Origin: Acidobacteriota bacterium
Lineage (GTDB): Bacteria; Acidobacteriota; Blastocatellia; RBC074
Reading direction: 5' to 3'
Length of the DNA stretch: 64,000 bases
NCBI GenBank assembly: GCA_016196035.1
Contig: JACPYM010000085.1
Span: 1 to 64,000, forward strand
Positions 1,079 through 11,579 of the stretch are shown here, piece by piece. The position numbers were made by a program, and so were the translations under genes. Position 1 is the stretch's first letter. Each line of letters starts with the position of its first letter. Under the pieces are notes generated by a model, which worked only from the letters and a program-made list of their open reading frames with translations, searched no databases and was not told the origin of the DNA.

Positions 1079-2479
1079 TCACCCGATCTCTAACCGGTAC
1101 CCTTTCCCCCGCAAAGTGGTGATGCAGTTGCTGGGCAATCCGCTTTGCTCTAACCGTATTCGCAAACGTTTGATCATAGCGTGCAGCGCGTCATCGGTGG
1201 GACTGTTGCCGCGTTGATATTCGTCAGGGTAGACCACGGCAACAATTTCATCCTTGGTACGTAGGCGGCCAGGCTCTAAACAAAGATACTCCAACAGCAG
1301 CAACTCTTTCCTCGTCAGAGGCGGAACCATTTGTTGCCCGCCCACCCAAACTTCGCCCGCCGTATCAATCCGAATTGGGCCGGCTTGAGTTTTGGTCGAG
1401 TGAGCGGCGCTGGCTTTCTGCGCTGCAATATATTCGGTGAACAGGACGCCGAACGGGCGGGTTATTTGATTTTCCTCTTTAACCAAATGTTTGAGCCGCA
1501 ACCGCCTGCCCGCTTCGGCGTTGCCGGGGGCAGCCTTCCGCTTAATAACGAGGTCACGCAAGACAGTACGCTCATCCTCGCCCAGGCCATCCCAGAGCTT
1601 GCCGCATTCCGTGCGCACATCGTCTACTTGAAGCAGTCCGGCAAGCGCCTGTTCATCGCTTTCCGGCAAGCTCACTTGGCCTTTCACCAGAGCCAAACAA
1701 GCCGCCTTCAACAAACCCGGATGCCCGCCAGTCAAGCCAATCAAACGCTCGCTTGTTTCCACCGGCAAGCCTACGCCATAACGTCCCGCGACACGCTGAA
1801 GTAAGCCGAGCGCATCCTCTCTCTCATAAGGGCCAAGCCCCATAACATTCGCCGAGAACAGTTCATAAAATTCCTCGTGTTCCGCCCCTAAACGCAACTG
1901 CGGCAACTCTTCACGCGTGAACACCAGATACGAGACACGATATTTGTGCTCATCGCGCAGCGCACGCAGATGAACGAAGAAGTGCGGATTGAACGTCTGA
2001 TAGGCTTCATCGAATTGATCGAAGAGGCAAACCAAATGCAGGTCGGGATCGGAGCCAAGCACCGCGCTTACCGCGTGCCCAAAAACACGCCGGCAGGCTG
2101 CCGCGTCAGCGGATTGCTGAATGAACTGCGTAATACCAGCCACGTAATCAATAACATCCTGCTCAATCACCTGCTGCTCACACTCAACCAAGAGCCGTTC
2201 GGAGAGCAATTCATACGCGGCGCGCTCGGACAACTCAGACAACGCGTGCGAATCTGCGGCAAGGAAAAGGTAGCGCTGCAAGGCATCGCTCAAATAGTGT
2301 TGCCGCACAGCCGGCGTCAGCAAATGGCGAAACAAATTGCTCTTGGCCATACCGCTAACACCAATCAGCGAACAGGAATCACCCGCACGCACACACCGGA
2401 CGACCTGTTCGACCAGCGGTTGGCGGTAAGTTAGCGGATGCGTTTTCAGATTGGCGGCTTGTGTGTTTACGTTGAACAT
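1079..2479 (-). CDS. STAND-like AAA ATPase with C-terminal OmpR-type winged helix
   Basis: The 466-residue protein has a P-loop at residues 40-47 (GVSGMAKS) and a Walker B-like block near 148-158 (LVCLFDQFDEA). A leucine-rich helical arm with GLTGGHPGLLKAAC follows, as in STAND/AAA_16 ATPases. Residues about 371-466 form a winged-helix domain of the OmpR/PhoB C-terminal type, from the hairpin VWVGGQQMVPPLTRKE through the recognition helix to RGKGYRLEIG. It is the last gene of a four-gene minus-strand operon, 11 bases after the TIR gene. By analogy with STAND regulators it may be an ATP-gated switch that binds DNA when activated. There is no receiver domain, so the link to its kinase neighbours is by context only. 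Confidence 0.85.
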   Translation of the reverse strand: MFNVNTQAANLKTHPLTYRQPLVEQVVRCVRAGDSCSLIGVSGMAKSNLFRHLLTPAVRQHYLSDALQRYLFLAADSHALSELSERAAYELLSERLLVECEQQVIEQDVIDYVAGITQFIQQSADAAACRRVFGHAVSAVLGSDPDLHLVCLFDQFDEAYQTFNPHFFVHLRALRDEHKYRVSYLVFTREELPQLRLGAEHEEFYELFSANVMGLGPYEREDALGLLQRVAGRYGVGLPVETSERLIGLTGGHPGLLKAACLALVKGQVSLPESDEQALAGLLQVDDVRTECGKLWDGLGEDERTVLRDLVIKRKAAPGNAEAGRRLRLKHLVKEENQITRPFGVLFTEYIAAQKASAAHSTKTQAGPIRIDTAGEVWVGGQQMVPPLTRKELLLLEYLCLEPGRLRTKDEIVAVVYPDEYQRGNSPTDDALHAMIKRLRIRLEQSGLPSNCITTLRGKGYRLEIG

Positions 2480-2490
2480 ACCTGACCTTG

Positions 2491-4632
2491 TTATTGTTGT
2501 TGCCGACGTCTTTTCGACTCCGCAATGGCCTTCAAAAGTTGCGGCCAGCCATCCTCCTGATAGAGCTGGATGGCATGATACTTCGCTAAACGCTCTGGCA
2601 AATCACATTCTTCCAACATAACAGGAATGATGAAGATGTCGCGCGGCAACATCTCTTGAACTTTGTCGACCGCTTGATTGGCCTCTCGTTGAAAAAAGCC
2701 GCGTTTTCCAACCGAGTTTTTTGAAAGACATGAAATGAAAATCGCAGAGTTTTCAATCGCCAGTTTAATACTGCCATTCCAATCCTCTCCCCCAACAAGC
2801 TCCTTATGATCTATCCAAGGCTCATGCCCTGCATCTGATAGTTGTTGATACAACCTATCAACTTTATCCCTGTCTTCACTGGCGTAGCTAAGAAAGATTT
2901 TCTTTTTCGCTTCAGAAGGTGAATTCGCCTTACGCGCGGCGGTCTGTAGCCGTTCGCAGATCATCGCTGCTGAAAGGAGCGCGTGGTATTGCGCAATACT
3001 TTCAGAGGGTTTCGCGCTATCGGCTGAAGTGAAACCTATCATCCGTTTGAGTGCTAAGAAGAGCAGGGCGATGTGATATTCATGCACTTTCTCGACATCG
3101 GTGAGTTGGCAGGCCAGTGAGCGCAAATGCTGAATGGTCTCGAGTGCGCGGGTTTGCACTGGTGTGGGATGTTTGAGCAACCCTACAATCGGCTCCCGCA
3201 ATGATTTCGGCGTGAGCAACGCTTCCTCAAGATCGTAACGCTCTCGTAGGCTGTTAGATTGCAGTAAAGTAAATTTGATGTCGCTCTCCAGTTCAGCGAA
3301 ATCACGCAGAATATGCCCCCAGCCTGTCTTATAAAAATCTATCAACCAGATACGTTCTGCATCGCCAACCACGATGTTGCCACTGTGTAAATCGCCGTGC
3401 GTAATAGCAACCTGAGCAGGCGGAGGGAAGAAATCGCGCCTAGCCTTGCTACTATGCTCTTCCAGAGCAAACAAAACAGGGTTGGGAAGTATAATTTGTT
3501 GCCTGTCGGCGATTTGAACCTGTAAGTGGCCATCCTTTAGTAAAAACATCGATGAATTGCCTAGTGTTTGCTGCTGCGCTAGCTGGCCGAATTGATTTTT
3601 TAATTCGGCCACATGCGGCTCATCTAAAAGGTTGAGATAGCCACGATACAAACGATCTAATGGCTCTCGCTCATTTTTTGCGAGCCTCCGCTTGCCGCCA
3701 TACCAGTTTTTGCAACTCACTTGAAAAAGATAGCTAACCACCTTCTTGATTTGCTCAACGCTCACTATCTCATCATTGTAGTAATCGAGAAAAGCCCTTA
3801 CCGAAGGAGCCTCCTTGCCAACAAATGAATAAGCAATGGCCCCCATCTCACGTGACCAAACCGGACCAAGTTCCAGTCTTGCGCGGCGCTCTACGTGTGG
3901 TTCTACAAATTCCTGATAGTTCAATTGTTCTAGGCTGATACTCTCTCGCGGGCCGAACTTGACTGCAAAGCTTGTGCCTGGAACGTTGTTTCGATCCTGC
4001 TGAGCTAAAGCGACTGTACAATGCCCATGCCCAGGAATTGCACGCAAGAAATTGACTTTGCTGGCCTTAGAAAAGAGGCGACAAGTCAAATCTCTCAGGA
4101 CACGCTCTGCTTTCTGCTTGGCTTCACCTTCGCGGTTCCGAAACATCTTTAACTGATCAACCAAAGTTGACCAGGAGAATCCCTTTTCGCGAGTTATCTC
4201 AGGATGGGAACCAAAACCAAGGCGCGTTTGAAAAGCCTGTTGAATCGCATCCAGAACTTTCTCCGGGCCATCGCCCTTACGGACAAAACGCACCGCTAGC
4301 GAGTCACCCCGTTCGTTTGGCTCAAGCATCTCGCAAATAGCCTTCTCTGCTGCTTCTGGATTGGGGAATGGTTGCCCTGTGAGAATAATCTTGATAATTG
4401 AATGATCGAGCCTTTTGGCAAGCCGCAAGCCGCTGTCATCACTCTCGTCGCTGTCATCTCGGAGTCGAATATCAATTACAGCCACATGAATAACCTCTTC
4501 CTCACAATACCTCTCAGCCTGTTCTTCGTTTTCAGCAGTTAGTACCATATAACCTTGGGCTTCCAGGTAATCTCTGTTAGAGGCAAGAACATTGGGCTTA
4601 TTATCAATAATTAAAACTACTGGTTCACACAT
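2491..4632 (-). CDS. Receiver domain - APH-like kinase fold - TIR domain fusion
   Basis: The 713-residue protein starts with a receiver domain (residues 1-130; phospho-acceptor D54 in AVIDIRL; TG at 85-86 in ILTGQPF). Residues about 190-450 form an aminoglycoside-phosphotransferase/kinase-like fold with a possible ATP-binding Lys (FAVKF, K225), a catalytic loop HGDLHSGN (412-419) and a metal-binding D432 in LIDFYKTG. This resembles the APH-like ternary-complex-associated domain (TCAD9) described in bacterial conflict systems. Residues about 576-713 are a TIR domain (KIFLSYASED; KRGFFQRE with the likely catalytic Glu at about 650). The gene has a GGGGAG ribosome site and follows the GAF kinase by 12 bases. 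GC is visibly lower than in flanking genes. TIR domains often hydrolyse or cyclise NAD+, but activity here is inferred. Confidence 0.85.
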   Translation of the reverse strand: MCEPVVLIIDNKPNVLASNRDYLEAQGYMVLTAENEEQAERYCEEEVIHVAVIDIRLRDDSDESDDSGLRLAKRLDHSIIKIILTGQPFPNPEAAEKAICEMLEPNERGDSLAVRFVRKGDGPEKVLDAIQQAFQTRLGFGSHPEITREKGFSWSTLVDQLKMFRNREGEAKQKAERVLRDLTCRLFSKASKVNFLRAIPGHGHCTVALAQQDRNNVPGTSFAVKFGPRESISLEQLNYQEFVEPHVERRARLELGPVWSREMGAIAYSFVGKEAPSVRAFLDYYNDEIVSVEQIKKVVSYLFQVSCKNWYGGKRRLAKNEREPLDRLYRGYLNLLDEPHVAELKNQFGQLAQQQTLGNSSMFLLKDGHLQVQIADRQQIILPNPVLFALEEHSSKARRDFFPPPAQVAITHGDLHSGNIVVGDAERIWLIDFYKTGWGHILRDFAELESDIKFTLLQSNSLRERYDLEEALLTPKSLREPIVGLLKHPTPVQTRALETIQHLRSLACQLTDVEKVHEYHIALLFLALKRMIGFTSADSAKPSESIAQYHALLSAAMICERLQTAARKANSPSEAKKKIFLSYASEDRDKVDRLYQQLSDAGHEPWIDHKELVGGEDWNGSIKLAIENSAIFISCLSKNSVGKRGFFQREANQAVDKVQEMLPRDIFIIPVMLEECDLPERLAKYHAIQLYQEDGWPQLLKAIAESKRRRQQQ

Positions 4633-4644
4633 ATCAGTCTCCCC

Positions 4645-7600
4645 TCAGTTGGCGATATCGGCTAGCGGCAAATGAAAGATGAAAGTAGTACCGCTAGCAT
4701 CTGAGTGATGCAACCTAATGTCACCGCCGCAAGCGAACAGGTAGATACGAGTGAGCAATAGGCCCATCCCGCTGCCAGCCTGATGAGCGCTGGGCACACG
4801 GCGAATGAAGAGTTGCTCTTGAATCTCAACAGGAATTCCACTCCCGGTATCTGCGACCTTGATGTAGGCACGCGCTGCAGCGACATAGCCCGAAAATGAA
4901 AGTTGCCCACCTTTCGGCATAGCCTTGATCGCATTTTGAATCAAATGATCGGCGACCTTCTGCAAAAGCTCTTCGTTGGCGAACACAGGCGGCATGCTAT
5001 CCAGTTGAATAGCGATCTCTATGTGTTTCTGTTGCAGATCACTTTCACGGCGTTTCCTTGCATCCCGCAAAATGTGCGCCAGCACAATCGGTTGTTTTTC
5101 GGTAGAGTCAGTAGGCATGCCTGGAATCAAGGTAGCAACCTTTTCAGCCGTCTGCTTGATGCGTTCGACAATTTCCGTAACTTTTGGGCTGAGATTGGAG
5201 GCGCAAGCAAGAAGTTTCAAGCTTTGGGCGTCTGCTCGAAGACTATAAGTCTCGTTTGCCGCATCGTGTGCCCAAGCTGACATCGCAGCAAGAGAAACGG
5301 CGGCATCGCTGGCCGATTCAAACCGCTCAAACTGGCGAGCGGTTTGAATGGCAATCCCCGCTTGTTGAGCGAAGATATTCATCCAAGTCAATTCTGACTG
5401 AGTAAACACATGGCGCGATAAAAAATTGACGAACATTACTCCAACTGGCTCGTCGCCAACTAGCAAAGGGACGCCGGCCGCCGAGGCAATGCCTTCACGC
5501 CGCACAAAACCATGATCAAGTACATCATCCCCTAACACATCATCCGCTGAGTGAAGTCGTCGCAAGTTAAGAACCCTGTAGATAGCAGATGCCGAGAGAT
5601 TTGGGCTAATCCAAATTTTCTCAGGCTCCCGAAGAAATCCTGCGTAGACAGGCTGTTCATCAATAACTCCAGTGTTTGGGTTATAGGGGTAAATGATTGC
5701 AATATCTGATCCAATGCCCCCATTCTTATCTACTGCTCCATCAACAACCCTCTTCAGCGTAGCTTCCAAATCGAAGCGTTGCTTGATGTCTTGAACATTG
5801 CCTAACAGATTCAAGCTTTGGGCATTTTTGTACGCCATGGCATTGGCTATAGCAGAGACAACTTCGTTAGCGAAAGCTATGCACAGGTTTTGTTGCTCCT
5901 TGTTATAAGCATCTAGCTGTTTACTATCAACCGCAAGCAAACCAATCAGCACTTTGCCGTACAGAAGCGGAACACCAAGCCAAGTACGTATGTGTTCAGT
6001 ATGATATTCTTCCGCCTGCTGCCAAAAATGAGAATAACTCGACCGTAAAACATCAGGAATAAACAAGGGCATTTGTGTATTTACGATATCAAAATCTGGG
6101 AATTGCGGATTGATGGGGAAAGATAACTGCATCACTTCACGCTTGGCCTCGCCTTCGAATCCATCACACGCAACAACCTTAAACACATCGCCAACTTTGA
6201 GTTGAATCGAAGCCGAATCATAAGGTAATAGCTTCTGCAATTGAACCAACACTTTTTCGAGGACATCATCAAGCACCAAAGTCGAATTGACGACCCTCGA
6301 AACCTCTTGCAAACGGCGTAAAGCTCTAGTTTTCCGGCGTAGAGCTGTAGTTTTCTTGGTGACCTGATCGTAAAGCTGAGCGTTTTTAATCGCAATCGCA
6401 ATTGCCGCAGCCGTCTGAGTAAGAATGCGGAGATCGCGATCATCGAAAGCATCCAAATTTGCGCTTTCAATGTTTAGCACGCCGAATGTTTTGTCACGGT
6501 AAATAAGCGGGGCCGCAATCTCGGAGCGGCTTCCTTCGGCGCTCTTGATATAGAGAGGCTCTTTACTAACATCTGGAACGATTTTTGGTTGGCCGGTTCT
6601 GGCAACTAATGCAGTCACTCCAGCCGTTTCATCGTTGATTTTAATCCTACGAGTACGGATGACATCCTCTGGATATTGGTTAGCGCGCTCAATATACAAC
6701 TCGTTCGTGCGTTGATTTTCTAAGAGCACAGCGCAAGTCGTATACCCGAACCGCTGGCGGAGGTTTTCTAGGATGGTATCAAGCAACTGATCATACTTCA
6801 GCACTGAGACGAGCGTCTGCGCCATCTCGCCCGTAGCGTCGCGCTCTTGTAAAAGCTGCTCGTTCTTTTTCAAAATCCGGGCCTTTTCAATCTCAGCACC
6901 TGCCAGCCTGCCTATGCGAGCAAGCAGTTCTGAATCCGACGTCGTAAATGTTCGACCATCGCTGGCGTCATGTATGACTAAAACCCCCAGCACATTAGAA
7001 CCAGAAACAATTGGCACACCAACAACAGCCTGAAGTTGATAATCCTCGAAATCTGGCAGCCGATTTTGCCATTCACTGTAATTGGAAACGGTAAATGGTT
7101 CCAAGCTGGTTAAAACCTCTCCAACCAAGCCCTCATAACGGCTCAATCGTTTGCCCTCCATTGCTCTCGAACTTACATCAGTAGCAGCTACTTCCAATTG
7201 CGTTTCATCCTCATCAACCAACAAATAAACAGCTCCGCTAGTTGCGCGAAGAAACCCAGCAGCACGATCGGCCACAGCATGCAAAAATTCTTTGAAATCT
7301 GAGATTTCAGCCAAGCTAGATATCCCATGCGAAATTCGTGTCTTCTCTATTTCTGCCCCAGCTAACTTACCAACGCGCACAAGAAGTCCTTGCTCTACCC
7401 CATTGAATTCACGTCCTTCTTGCCGATCATGCACAACTAAGACACCTAATAACCGAGAGCCGGAAATGATAGGCACACCTACAACTGCCGTAAGATGGAG
7501 GTCGTCCAAAACTGTCAATCGTTGCTCCCATTCCCAATAATTGGGAACAGCCACTCGGCGTTCTAAACGTAACACTTCCCCCAATAAACCTTTGTGGCTC

Positions 7601-9231
7601 TGAAGTAACTTACCTTCCTCAAACGCCAGGATACCCGTCACACCAGCCACTTCGACTTGTTCGCCATCTTTGGTTAACAGGTAAACGGCCCCGCCAACTG
7701 CGTGGAGAAACTTGGCCGCACGCTCAGCCACAAAACGGCATAAATTTTTGTAGTCGTTGAACTCAGCCATTTCAGCAGCCATTTGATTGAGTTCATATAA
7801 CTGCAACACTAAGGCCTTCTCTTCTTGTTGCAGCCTCTCTTTCTCAACTGCAATGGCTACCTGATCCGCCAGCACTTGCAGTAACCTCCATTGCTCTTTA
7901 GCGAGCACGACTTGATTCTTACTGCCAAGAGTGACAATCCCGTGTAACTTCCTATTACTTCGCAATGGGAGAATTGCAAAGAACTTGAGATCCTTTCGCA
8001 CCAAGGCTCGACTCAACCCTGAGTGTTGCGCCAGGTCATCAAAGATGATTGGTTCATTGGCATTGAAAACCCCATCACGTATTGCTTTCGGTAAATCTGC
8101 CAATGACTTCTCTACTCTCTTCCCCAAGCCACGTTCTATATCAAAGCTCAGGGTTTGCAAACGATCATCAAAAAAACCAATCGTACATGTGTCCAGTTCA
8201 AGTAACTTGTAAAGATCGTCCACAACTATGTTAAGCACCCGATCAAGGTTGTCTTCTTGGCGAGTAGCGGTAAGCGTTTCATAGAGATGGGAGAGAATTC
8301 TCAAACTCTGCTCTTGTTGTTCATGGAAGAGGGCATTCTCAACAGCCAGGGCAATATGACTAGCGACAGTTTGTAGCAATTCATAGTGATCTTGGGTAAA
8401 GGCATCTTGCTGGTCGCTCTGCGCGCAAATTGCACCAATAACCCGGCCACCGCTGATAAGCTGGATTCCAATCAATGCCCGACTTGGCGGATATATCAAA
8501 TTGATTCGCTGAATCAGCGACTGTCTTTCGGCTGCATCTAAATCATTGTGAAACTGCGATCCGTTTTTGATGATGTGCCCCGTTAATCCCCATTGTTGTT
8601 TATCGCTCAAAGGGCGCGGCTCCAATTTAATTCCTTCTTTCCGGCTACCAAACACCCAGAGGAAACGAAACTCGTCACGGGGCTCGTCATAGATAGAGAT
8701 ATGCAAAAGATCAAGATTCGGAATTAGTTTGGCCGTGCGCTCACAAATCTGCCGGGCAATTTCCTCAGGGTTGAGACTCCGCGTAGCGGCCTGGCTCACA
8801 TCCAGAATCTTTTCCAGCAAGTCGCGCTCTCGCTCAACGGCCTTCAACCTCCGCCGCTCTGCCGCAGCGCGGATGTATACAATCAGTTCTTCATCACGCA
8901 ATGGTTTGAGGACGTAATTGCAAGCCCCCTCCCGCATCGCCCGCAAACCATCATCCACATCTCCAAAGCCAGTAATAATAATTACCTCGACACCGGGGTG
9001 AGATGATTGAATACTCTTCATCACCTCAATTCCATCCCGCCCCGGCCCAAGCCGCATATCTATCAGCGCGACGTCATAATCACCCTGTGCAGCCGCCACG
9101 CAGGCCAACGCTTCGTCACCATCGCCCGCGCAATCAACTGCAAATTGGTAAGTGCGGCGAAGTTTTTCGGCCAGCCACTCGCGCGCATCAACTTGATTGT
9201 CAACAAACAGGATGCGGATCGGATTAGTCAT
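4645..9231 (-). CDS. Hybrid sensor histidine kinase, REC plus seven GAF domains
   Basis: The 1528-residue cytoplasmic protein has an N-terminal receiver domain (D58 in ALIDMRL). Seven GAF-like domains follow at roughly 140-300, 310-470, 480-640, 650-815, 830-980, 1000-1150 and 1155-1320, each preceded by a helical linker. The third and fourth are close internal duplicates (both contain GLLGEVL or GLVGEVL and VVGVPI.SG..LGVLV). A short histidine-bearing dimerisation region (AWAHDAANETYSL) and an HATPase domain (N box DHLIQNAIKAM, DTGSGIP, GSGMGLLLTRIY) end the protein. No membrane segment is seen. Its ATG overlaps the stop codon of the restored upstream kinase frame (ATGA), indicating coupling. 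GC is lower than in the flanking genes, a sign of possible transfer. Confidence 0.9.
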   Translation of the reverse strand: MTNPIRILFVDNQVDAREWLAEKLRRTYQFAVDCAGDGDEALACVAAAQGDYDVALIDMRLGPGRDGIEVMKSIQSSHPGVEVIIITGFGDVDDGLRAMREGACNYVLKPLRDEELIVYIRAAAERRRLKAVERERDLLEKILDVSQAATRSLNPEEIARQICERTAKLIPNLDLLHISIYDEPRDEFRFLWVFGSRKEGIKLEPRPLSDKQQWGLTGHIIKNGSQFHNDLDAAERQSLIQRINLIYPPSRALIGIQLISGGRVIGAICAQSDQQDAFTQDHYELLQTVASHIALAVENALFHEQQEQSLRILSHLYETLTATRQEDNLDRVLNIVVDDLYKLLELDTCTIGFFDDRLQTLSFDIERGLGKRVEKSLADLPKAIRDGVFNANEPIIFDDLAQHSGLSRALVRKDLKFFAILPLRSNRKLHGIVTLGSKNQVVLAKEQWRLLQVLADQVAIAVEKERLQQEEKALVLQLYELNQMAAEMAEFNDYKNLCRFVAERAAKFLHAVGGAVYLLTKDGEQVEVAGVTGILAFEEGKLLQSHKGLLGEVLRLERRVAVPNYWEWEQRLTVLDDLHLTAVVGVPIISGSRLLGVLVVHDRQEGREFNGVEQGLLVRVGKLAGAEIEKTRISHGISSLAEISDFKEFLHAVADRAAGFLRATSGAVYLLVDEDETQLEVAATDVSSRAMEGKRLSRYEGLVGEVLTSLEPFTVSNYSEWQNRLPDFEDYQLQAVVGVPIVSGSNVLGVLVIHDASDGRTFTTSDSELLARIGRLAGAEIEKARILKKNEQLLQERDATGEMAQTLVSVLKYDQLLDTILENLRQRFGYTTCAVLLENQRTNELYIERANQYPEDVIRTRRIKINDETAGVTALVARTGQPKIVPDVSKEPLYIKSAEGSRSEIAAPLIYRDKTFGVLNIESANLDAFDDRDLRILTQTAAAIAIAIKNAQLYDQVTKKTTALRRKTRALRRLQEVSRVVNSTLVLDDVLEKVLVQLQKLLPYDSASIQLKVGDVFKVVACDGFEGEAKREVMQLSFPINPQFPDFDIVNTQMPLFIPDVLRSSYSHFWQQAEEYHTEHIRTWLGVPLLYGKVLIGLLAVDSKQLDAYNKEQQNLCIAFANEVVSAIANAMAYKNAQSLNLLGNVQDIKQRFDLEATLKRVVDGAVDKNGGIGSDIAIIYPYNPNTGVIDEQPVYAGFLREPEKIWISPNLSASAIYRVLNLRRLHSADDVLGDDVLDHGFVRREGIASAAGVPLLVGDEPVGVMFVNFLSRHVFTQSELTWMNIFAQQAGIAIQTARQFERFESASDAAVSLAAMSAWAHDAANETYSLRADAQSLKLLACASNLSPKVTEIVERIKQTAEKVATLIPGMPTDSTEKQPIVLAHILRDARKRRESDLQQKHIEIAIQLDSMPPVFANEELLQKVADHLIQNAIKAMPKGGQLSFSGYVAAARAYIKVADTGSGIPVEIQEQLFIRRVPSAHQAGSGMGLLLTRIYLFACGGDIRLHHSDASGTTFIFHLPLADIAN

Positions 9232-9422
9232 ACTGTGGCTCCTTCCATACTGGGTAAGACGAGCGGTAACTCGATGAGAAAGATTGTGCCAACCGTCATC
9301 ACGCTTTCTTCCACGCTGATTCTGCCACCCATGGATTCGACCAGCCCGCGCGTGATGAAAAGACCGAAGCCATTCCCTTCACTCCGGGTCGAGAAACCCA
9401 GCTCGAAGATGCATTCCAGATG
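9228..9422 (-). pseudogene. Cut-off C-terminal part of the HATPase domain of the S1 kinase
   Basis: Reading on in frame past TAG gives HLECIFELGFSTRSEGNG, then FGLFITRGLVESMGGRIS and further, to a TGA at 9228-9230. This is the expected rest of an HATPase domain (F box, G2 box GNGFGLF, final strand TIFLIELPL). The TGA overlaps the ATG of the next gene, so the ancestral frame ended exactly here. The usual residue after GI-x-Q is Glu, so one change GAG to TAG explains the interruption. Full length would be about 783 residues. A sequencing error, a recent nonsense mutation or readthrough can each explain it. Confidence 0.85.
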
Positions 9423-11579
9423 CTACTGATGAATGCCGGGGCCGGTGTCGGTCACGCGCAGTTGTAAGGGCAGGCGGCTGTCTTGGCTGGCGAAGCGGCT
9501 CTGGATGAGCACCTCCCCGCTACCTCTGGCAAGTTGAGTATGCTGAATGGCGTTGAGCGCGACATTGACAAGCACCTGCTCCACACGCACGCCTACGGCA
9601 TAGGTAGTGGGGAGATTGTTGTCGGTATCAGTGACGACACGCACGCTGTAACCTTCCGCAATCGGCGTCAGGATGCTGACGGCCCGGTGGATCACTTCGT
9701 TGAGGTTGACCGCTTCACGGCTTTCGGGGCTGACCATGCCGAGGTAAAGCCGCATGATCTTGTGCATGGCACGTCCGTTTTCTTGCAGGCTGCGGATGCA
9801 GGTTTGCATTTCGCTTAATCGGCCTTGCGCGTCGCTCTGTGGCAGTGCGGCGGCGCCTGAAGAACGCTGTTCGATGGCGTTGTAATCAAAGGCGAGTGTT
9901 TGCGTGTCATTGAGAATACTGCTCAACCGGTTATTCAGTTCGTGCACCAGATGCGAGCCGAGTTGGCCGGCAAAGACGGACGGCTGCATCTGTTGGATCA
10001 CCCGCTCGGCCTCTTTGCGGGCCATGAGTGCGGCCATTAGTTCGGCGGCGGTTTCAGCTTTTCTGAGGCATTCAGTAGTGAAATGCCCTTTGCGCGAATG
10101 GAACAGAAAGAGGCCGTATTCGCGTTGCCCGAAGCCTTTGACCGGCAGGCCGATGCAGGAGGCGAAATTGACAATGTCCAGATGCTTAAACTTTTGCGGG
10201 TTGCGGGTGGTGTCAGATTCGTAAACGGTCTGGCCTTCGTGAATCACCTGTTCGATGGGGGTCGCTTGCAGGGTGTATTTCGATCCGTCGTAGTTGGACA
10301 GCCGCGCGCCGGTGTGCGCGAAGACGCTTACCTGGCGTGTGGACAGGTTCATATGGAAGAGCACACAGGATTCCGCTTTTGTGATGCGCTGCAATTCGCT
10401 GAGTTTTTCGTTGAGCGAGCGGAGCAAATCTTCGCTCGCCAAGGTCATTTCGCCAAGCCGCCCCGCCTCGATTCCCGGCAAATCGGGCATCGGGGTCTCA
10501 TCCCAATCTTCCCGGCCTGCGGCCAGTTCGGTCAACGTATGATGGAGCCGCGCGAATTCTACGGGCTTGATGAGCGCGCCGCGTGCGCCCGCCGCGCGCG
10601 CTTCGGTTTTGACGTTGTAATGCTGGGCCAGCCAGTTGATCCCGGTGACGATCACGACCGGCAGCTTGGGATGTGCGCGGGTCAAACGTTGCGCAGCCTC
10701 TGTCCCGTTGAGTTTGCCCGTGCCGAGTTCGTGATCCAGCAAGAGCAGGTCGAAAGCTCGCTCGGCGCAGAGGGCGATGGCCCGTTCAGCATTATCGCAA
10801 GTTTCAACTTGATGCCCCAGCCGATTCAGCAGCCGTTGCAGTGAATGCCGAATGCTGGGGTCGTCATCCACCAATAAAATCCGTGGGAATCTGGCGGCCA
10901 ACTCCGCCCAGGCGTCTATTTCGACCGCTTCGCTTTGTGCACCCGCGCGCCGCTCTTGAAACCAGTTTAAGAGGAGTTGTCGCTGCTCCTGGTTCAACAA
11001 ATCACCGAGCGGGAAGCCGGAGGGCTTGCGCTCAAGCTCGGCCAAATGCTGCCTGAGGCTCAAGCGCAATTGACGCGCGGCGGGATCAATGTGAGTGACC
11101 ACAGCTTGGACGGTGTCGCCAACCCACAAGACATCTTCAATTCGTTCGGGCGGGGCTTGGCTTACTTCCTGCAACGGGACAAGGCCGGTTATGGCCGGCT
11201 CCAACTCCACAAAGGCCCCGGCCCGCGCAAGGCTAACGATTTTGCGACGCAGAACTTGCCCGACTTGATAACGCCGGTAAATGTCAGCCCAAGGATCGCG
11301 CTCAGCTTGCCGCAGGCTGAGTTCCAGGCGCGGATGAGGCCGCACACGATCTACACCCAGGACTAACACTTTGACTTCCTGGCCCACTGACAACAGGGCG
11401 GCAGGCTCGGGTTGGTCTTGCGCCCAGGAAAGCTCGCGGCTGCGAATGATGCCCGCCATATCATTGGGTAATCTTACGATGGCCCCAAAATCGGTGAGTA
11501 CCTGAACCTGCGCTGTCAATTGTGCGCCTTTCGGATAGCGCCGGTTGAGATCGGTGATGATAGCTGTCTCTGCGTCCAA
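9423..11579 (-). CDS. S1-S1-REC-GAF-histidine kinase, frame ended by an early TAG
   Basis: The 718-residue frame starts at TTG (11579) behind AAGGAG. Two S1 RNA-binding repeats (about 17-91 and 103-177; each ends LxLSLRQ) are followed by a receiver domain (233-350, phospho-acceptor D282), a GAF domain (about 385-520), a dimerisation helix with H546 in HLVHELNN, and the first part of an HATPase domain (N box NVALNAIQH, then TDTGPGIHQ). The frame stops with TAG at 9423-9425 right after the G1 box, so the G2 box and the end of the ATPase fold are missing from this product. The lost part lies directly downstream in the same frame. An S1-histidine kinase fusion is unusual and may link sensing to RNA or ribosomes; that is inference. 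Confidence 0.85.
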   Translation of the reverse strand: MDAETAIITDLNRRYPKGAQLTAQVQVLTDFGAIVRLPNDMAGIIRSRELSWAQDQPEPAALLSVGQEVKVLVLGVDRVRPHPRLELSLRQAERDPWADIYRRYQVGQVLRRKIVSLARAGAFVELEPAITGLVPLQEVSQAPPERIEDVLWVGDTVQAVVTHIDPAARQLRLSLRQHLAELERKPSGFPLGDLLNQEQRQLLLNWFQERRAGAQSEAVEIDAWAELAARFPRILLVDDDPSIRHSLQRLLNRLGHQVETCDNAERAIALCAERAFDLLLLDHELGTGKLNGTEAAQRLTRAHPKLPVVIVTGINWLAQHYNVKTEARAAGARGALIKPVEFARLHHTLTELAAGREDWDETPMPDLPGIEAGRLGEMTLASEDLLRSLNEKLSELQRITKAESCVLFHMNLSTRQVSVFAHTGARLSNYDGSKYTLQATPIEQVIHEGQTVYESDTTRNPQKFKHLDIVNFASCIGLPVKGFGQREYGLFLFHSRKGHFTTECLRKAETAAELMAALMARKEAERVIQQMQPSVFAGQLGSHLVHELNNRLSSILNDTQTLAFDYNAIEQRSSGAAALPQSDAQGRLSEMQTCIRSLQENGRAMHKIMRLYLGMVSPESREAVNLNEVIHRAVSILTPIAEGYSVRVVTDTDNNLPTTYAVGVRVEQVLVNVALNAIQHTQLARGSGEVLIQSRFASQDSRLPLQLRVTDTGPGIHQ

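Follow-up and report, generated by a model that had tools for sequence, protein, structure and literature searches.

A receiver–TCAD9 kinase–TIR protein beside histidine kinases: a putative two-component-controlled effector operon in an Acidobacteriota bacterium

TIR, caspase and CHAT domains act as effectors in conflict and cell death. In bacteria they recur in such systems (PMC7159879, PMC8195603), and among the described systems closest to the locus treated here are the MoxR-vWA ternary NTP-dependent conflict systems (VMAP, iSTAND, iSTAND2, and TERNS3; Kaur et al. 2020, 2021), from which the TCAD9 domain was named. According to the papers on the ternary systems their receivers occur independently of histidine kinases, and small-molecule substrates have been suggested there for APH-type effectors. 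Two-component systems, in which histidine kinases adjoin receiver proteins whose output is a DNA-binding or a cyclic-di-GMP domain, and TIR immune effectors are usually handled as separate worlds.

The window, that is, the whole stretch of 64,000 nt analysed (contig JACPYM010000085.1 of an Acidobacteriota bacterium, class Blastocatellia), contains four closely spaced genes on the minus strand, listed here in the direction of reading with the domains of the third protein beneath it:

9228..11579, minus strand: HK1, an S1-S1-REC-GAF-HATPase histidine kinase, H-box HELNN (Pfam, H-box inspection)
4645..9231, minus strand: HK2, a REC-GAFx7-HATPase histidine kinase, 1528 aa (Pfam, H-box AHDAAN)
2491..4632, minus strand: REC-TCAD9-TIR protein, 713 aa (ORF, Pfam, residue alignment)
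4228..4632, minus strand: its receiver domain, residues 1–135 (Pfam Response_reg, 1.9e-7); D54 codon 4473..4471
2944..4137, minus strand: its TCAD9 or APH-type kinase domain, about residues 166–563 (Pfam, alignment, PDB profile match); D414 codon 3393..3391
2494..2910, minus strand: its TIR domain, residues 575–713 (Pfam, alignment, PDB profile match to the SPARTA TIR); E650 codon 2685..2683
1079..2479, minus strand: nSTAND1 ATPase-OmpR-type wHTH protein, 466 aa (Pfam nSTAND1 9.8e-9, Trans_reg_C 2.3e-13)

HK2 lies 12 bp upstream of the REC-TCAD9-TIR gene and the nSTAND1-wHTH gene 11 bp downstream of it. HK2 is intact, with the N and G boxes of the HATPase present and AHDAAN as the probable H-box. 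In HK1 (S1 9e-25, Response_reg 1e-20, GAF_2 2e-6, and a partial HATPase_c in Pfam) an in-frame TAG (9425..9423) falls inside the HATPase, ahead of its last boxes; past it the remaining ATPase boxes can be read to a TGA at 9230..9228, which overlaps the ATG of HK2, and the TAG either truly interrupts the gene or stems from a draft-assembly error. The G+C content of HK2 and the REC-TCAD9-TIR gene (45–49%) is below that of the window (56%) and of HK1 and the nSTAND gene (55–59%), which would fit a separate acquisition of the two middle genes. Promoter and terminator scans did no better than shuffled sequence.

The initial annotation had placed a protein of three signalling modules, a receiver, a kinase-like fold and a TIR domain, at 2491–4632, and the position is right; the gene itself is a single ORF which starts with an ATG on the minus strand (4632..2491). 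Coding on the plus strand was dropped, as this strand is full of stops. All three modules are recognized by Pfam, each match exceeding its curated cut-off: Response_reg at residues 6–82; TCAD9 (PF19974) with 5.3e-28 and 98.8 bits against a gathering score of 40, in two stretches of which the best is 369–530; APH with 6e-8, so that the kinase-like fold is of the TCAD9/APH type that had been guessed; and TIR_2 at 579–696 with 3.1e-25 and 89.5 bits against a cut-off of 28, next to a match to the TIR family (5e-5). The residues that had been read as intact (D54, the HGD414 loop, D432, and the TIR glutamate) are so in alignments. Neither outcome named beforehand as refuting the annotation, a missing kinase or TIR match or an unalignable D54, was obtained. 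Over its whole length the receiver can be aligned with receivers of known structure, with the phospho-acceptor D54, T85, and K119 in register; its acidic pair is D10-N11, asparagine standing at the second acid position in about half of the family. In TCAD9 the catalytic residues K225, E235, H412-G-D414, N419, and D432 are all present, and a pseudokinase reading was dropped for this reason; the catalytic loop matches profiles of solved APH(3′) and RIO2 weakly (E 2.5e-4 to 7e-3), and the domain probably has the activity of a phosphotransferase of the APH type. E650 is invariant across nine aligned TIRs and in a profile alignment falls on the catalytic glutamate of the SPARTA TIR (E77 by our own count after a short tag; the catalytic mutant is E77A, PMC10474274); the TIR domain is a probable NAD-cleaving one.

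The operon shares an effector vocabulary with the MoxR-vWA ternary systems (APH-type kinase, TIR, CHAT or caspase, receiver, and STAND) and occurs in similar bacteria, but it contains no MoxR or vWA genes and does contain histidine kinases; membership in that group was therefore dropped. Pfam finds no vWA family match in the four proteins, and of MoxR only a sub-threshold bpMoxR match on the nSTAND protein (14.8 bits against 27). As in two-component systems, histidine kinases with H-box and HATPase adjoin a receiver protein with conserved D, T, and K, whereas the output is here a kinase-TIR (elsewhere a caspase or CHAT) module. With the TIR anti-phage effectors (SPARTA, Thoeris, RT-TIR retrons) the protein shares a TIR_2 domain with glutamate at the catalytic position, the best profile match being the TIR of SPARTA, a short Argonaute system; however, the operon has no Argonaute, ThsA, SAVED, or reverse transcriptase, and the regulator is REC-TCAD9. 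With aminoglycoside phosphotransferases (APH) TCAD9 shares the HGDxxxxN and D motifs and the lysine and glutamate of the N-lobe, but it spans more than 360 profile positions, resides within a signalling protein, and matches in sequence over the C-lobe only.

The reading we favour, at a probability of about one half, is that the operon encodes an effector system under two-component control, serving programmed cell death or defence. Upstream, HK1 with its S1 domains and HK2 with its seven GAF domains would respond to a signal inside the cell and phosphorylate D54; REC-TCAD9 would be the conserved switch, in which the TCAD9 kinase takes an active part, acting on a substrate that may be a small molecule; phosphorylation of the receiver would free or assemble the C-terminal effector, here a TIR cleaving NAD+, and the attached or adjacent effector would kill or arrest the cell. 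Expression control or the setting of a threshold is the probable task of the nSTAND-wHTH protein encoded downstream. This wiring and its direction are read from anatomy; the control of the TIR by both receiver and kinase which the initial annotation proposed is a fair inference resting on real modules and residues; it is strengthened by the retention of REC-TCAD9 in two phyla beside histidine kinases, nSTAND-wHTH, and interchangeable outputs. Against a two-component effector system speak the single occurrence of the TIR fusion, the stop in HK1, and kinases without a canonical H-box in related loci, as well as the placement of the locus in no recognized defence system by PADLOC: no defence model matched the whole protein, the matches lying on the TIR region and, weakly, on the receiver region (PD-T4-6, 1.6e-4), and the nSTAND-wHTH protein had none.

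Among 400 Chloroflexota genomes 16 carry REC-TCAD9 (E ≤ 1e-40), as do 7 of the 162 searched from the class of the window (1e-30); across its phylum, 3 genomes out of 396 have it in full length. The fusion to TIR occurred once among about 1,000 genomes, in the window protein. A pattern search for related loci returned none with the single protein as query and eight with the alignment, and this alignment-based scan alone covered phyla beyond Acidobacteriota and Chloroflexota; the phyletic range given here is that of the collections searched, which consist of draft genomes and MAGs. Searches of plasmids and of viral contigs found no relatives of the REC-TCAD9 core. TCAD9 is also met in other company: with an N-terminal STAS domain in other Acidobacteriota (L102:3492-5648, L105:5459-7747), between isochorismatase-like and dual-specificity-type phosphatase domains, that is, kinase and phosphatase in one protein (L103:5134-7464, L104:3742-6162), and in a 1192-aa Chloroflexota protein together with a STAND-type ATPase and a Ser/Thr protein kinase (L101:5193-8771).

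In both phyla the cluster built around REC-TCAD9 as its core, as surveyed with home-made profiles and Pfam, comprises an S1-REC-(GAF)-histidine kinase, a REC-GAFn-histidine kinase, REC-TCAD9 with or without effector, and nSTAND-wHTH. GAF-rich HATPase kinases adjoin REC-TCAD9 in nearly all loci. S1-REC-HATPase kinases stand ahead of the cluster in five Chloroflexota loci, L115–L119, with a similar one in L022, and such histidine kinases with a receiver and N-terminal S1 domains of the RNA-binding type (L115:250-2433, L116:194-2530, L117:78-2324, L118:137-2356, L119:4974-7247, L022:3-2183) are conserved in two phyla; the S1 domain suggests an RNA-related input, which would make them candidate RNA-sensing two-component kinases. 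In the open-access literature, a search of which is weak evidence in the negative, nothing was found on REC-TCAD9 with histidine kinases or on an S1-histidine kinase.

The two adjacent kinases, which the initial annotation had named for a phosphotransfer assay, both exist as genes, one of the two, HK1, interrupted as described; HK2, directly upstream with its H-box and ATPase boxes, and the conservation of the receiver speak for a phosphorelay. It is nevertheless conceivable, if unlikely, that the receiver is a nucleotide- or partner-responsive adaptor that works independently of histidine kinases, another sensor recruiting the TIR effector. The same role has been proposed for receivers of iSTAND2, TERNS3, and VMAP systems (PMC8195603), the pair D10-N11 is not the usual acidic one, and several kinases of the group with CHAT proteases lack a canonical H-box upon inspection. 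An adaptor, however, sits badly with the near-invariance of the phosphorylation residues, D54 and T/S85 being kept in all 28 receivers compared and K119 in 27, and with the ATPase-box histidine kinases next to REC-TCAD9 in nearly all loci, unlike the situation in ternary systems.

That the two-component-controlled system ends in an effector is argued from what occupies the place after TCAD9. This slot holds TIR in the window, a Peptidase_C14 caspase with GHG and DAC dyad motifs at the same C-terminal position in a Chloroflexota protein (L088), STAND in L016, and an OmpR-type wHTH in six loci (L017, L018, L019, L090, L091, L100); in four others (L020, L027, L029, L106) REC-TCAD9 is followed by a gene of its own for a REC-CHAT protease, whose His and Cys are invariant, and some members have no recognized effector either within the protein or in a neighbouring gene. 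In a maximum-likelihood tree the wHTH-fused proteins form a supported clade, the window protein pairs with L016, and L099 joins this pair less firmly; one group contains the CHAT members and one Chloroflexota group the caspase, so that TIR, caspase, and CHAT belong to separate lineages that share one core. All six proteins fused to wHTH have degraded kinase residues, a loss that counts as a single event because these proteins make up one clade; the residues are intact in the remaining full-length members (L016 has glutamate for aspartate at 432). Since effector-type homologues retain them and only the clade with fused wHTH has lost them, the kinase fold is more than decoration. Adjoining the genes for REC-degenerate TCAD9-wHTH in two loci is a receiver fused to the two-transmembrane domain CyanoTRADDas_TM (L017:9929-10795, L018:8320-9192).

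The presence of wHTH domains bears on another reading, which we consider improbable: that the operon serves signalling and transcription instead of killing, the TIR making a nucleotide signal or mediating assembly toward nSTAND-wHTH while TCAD9 modifies a metabolite or protein. TIR domains able to make signalling molecules are known from the literature, wHTH is fused to the core throughout one clade, and nSTAND-wHTH adjoins REC-TCAD9 in most loci without CHAT; nSTAND(-wHTH) genes were found next to it in L016, L088, L089, L092, and L095–L099, convergent yet adjacent in L092, L095, and L097, and the seven partners compared are 29–51% identical to the nSTAND of the window. Yet the caspase and CHAT outputs of the other lineages, with intact dyads, are executioner-type and not messenger-making enzymes. 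A STAND-TIR gene in the nearest relative counts, like these, for the two-component-controlled effector system.

This nearest relative, L016 (its contig, also represented as L026, belongs to a Blastocatellia MAG), is 46% identical to the window protein over the core, with a STAND ATPase after REC-TCAD9 (1113 aa); downstream of it follow the STAND-TIR gene and an nSTAND gene, which over the part present is 51% identical to that of the window. The host of the window, a draft genome of 9.6 Mb, is rich in TIR domains, with 26 TIR_2 matches. A one-off fusion of little consequence, in which TIR recently joined the core in this lineage and the operon is decaying, would account for the single find and the stop in HK1 and would suit the many TIR_2 matches. 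It is very unlikely, however, given the clean frame, the three domains with their key residues intact, the TIR gene that L016 has in its cluster, and the caspase put at the same place by an independent lineage.

Swapped effectors on a conserved core look like a wiring of ordinary sensor kinases to cell-death effectors, and we tentatively propose, at somewhat less than even odds, that these loci represent an undescribed family of operons for cell death or defence. Phosphorelays from histidine kinases, one of which bears S1 domains of the RNA-binding type, would there switch a core of receiver and kinase, and this core would fire TIR, caspase, or CHAT as interchangeable effectors. The operon gives TCAD9 a defined set of partners, and the active kinase with effectors and the dead kinase with wHTH offer a natural contrast for its role. 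If the proposal is true, two-component signalling would set off the depletion of NAD+ or suicide by proteolysis; since one conserved operon unites sensor kinases, a switch made of receiver and kinase, and exchangeable death effectors, this link is directly testable.
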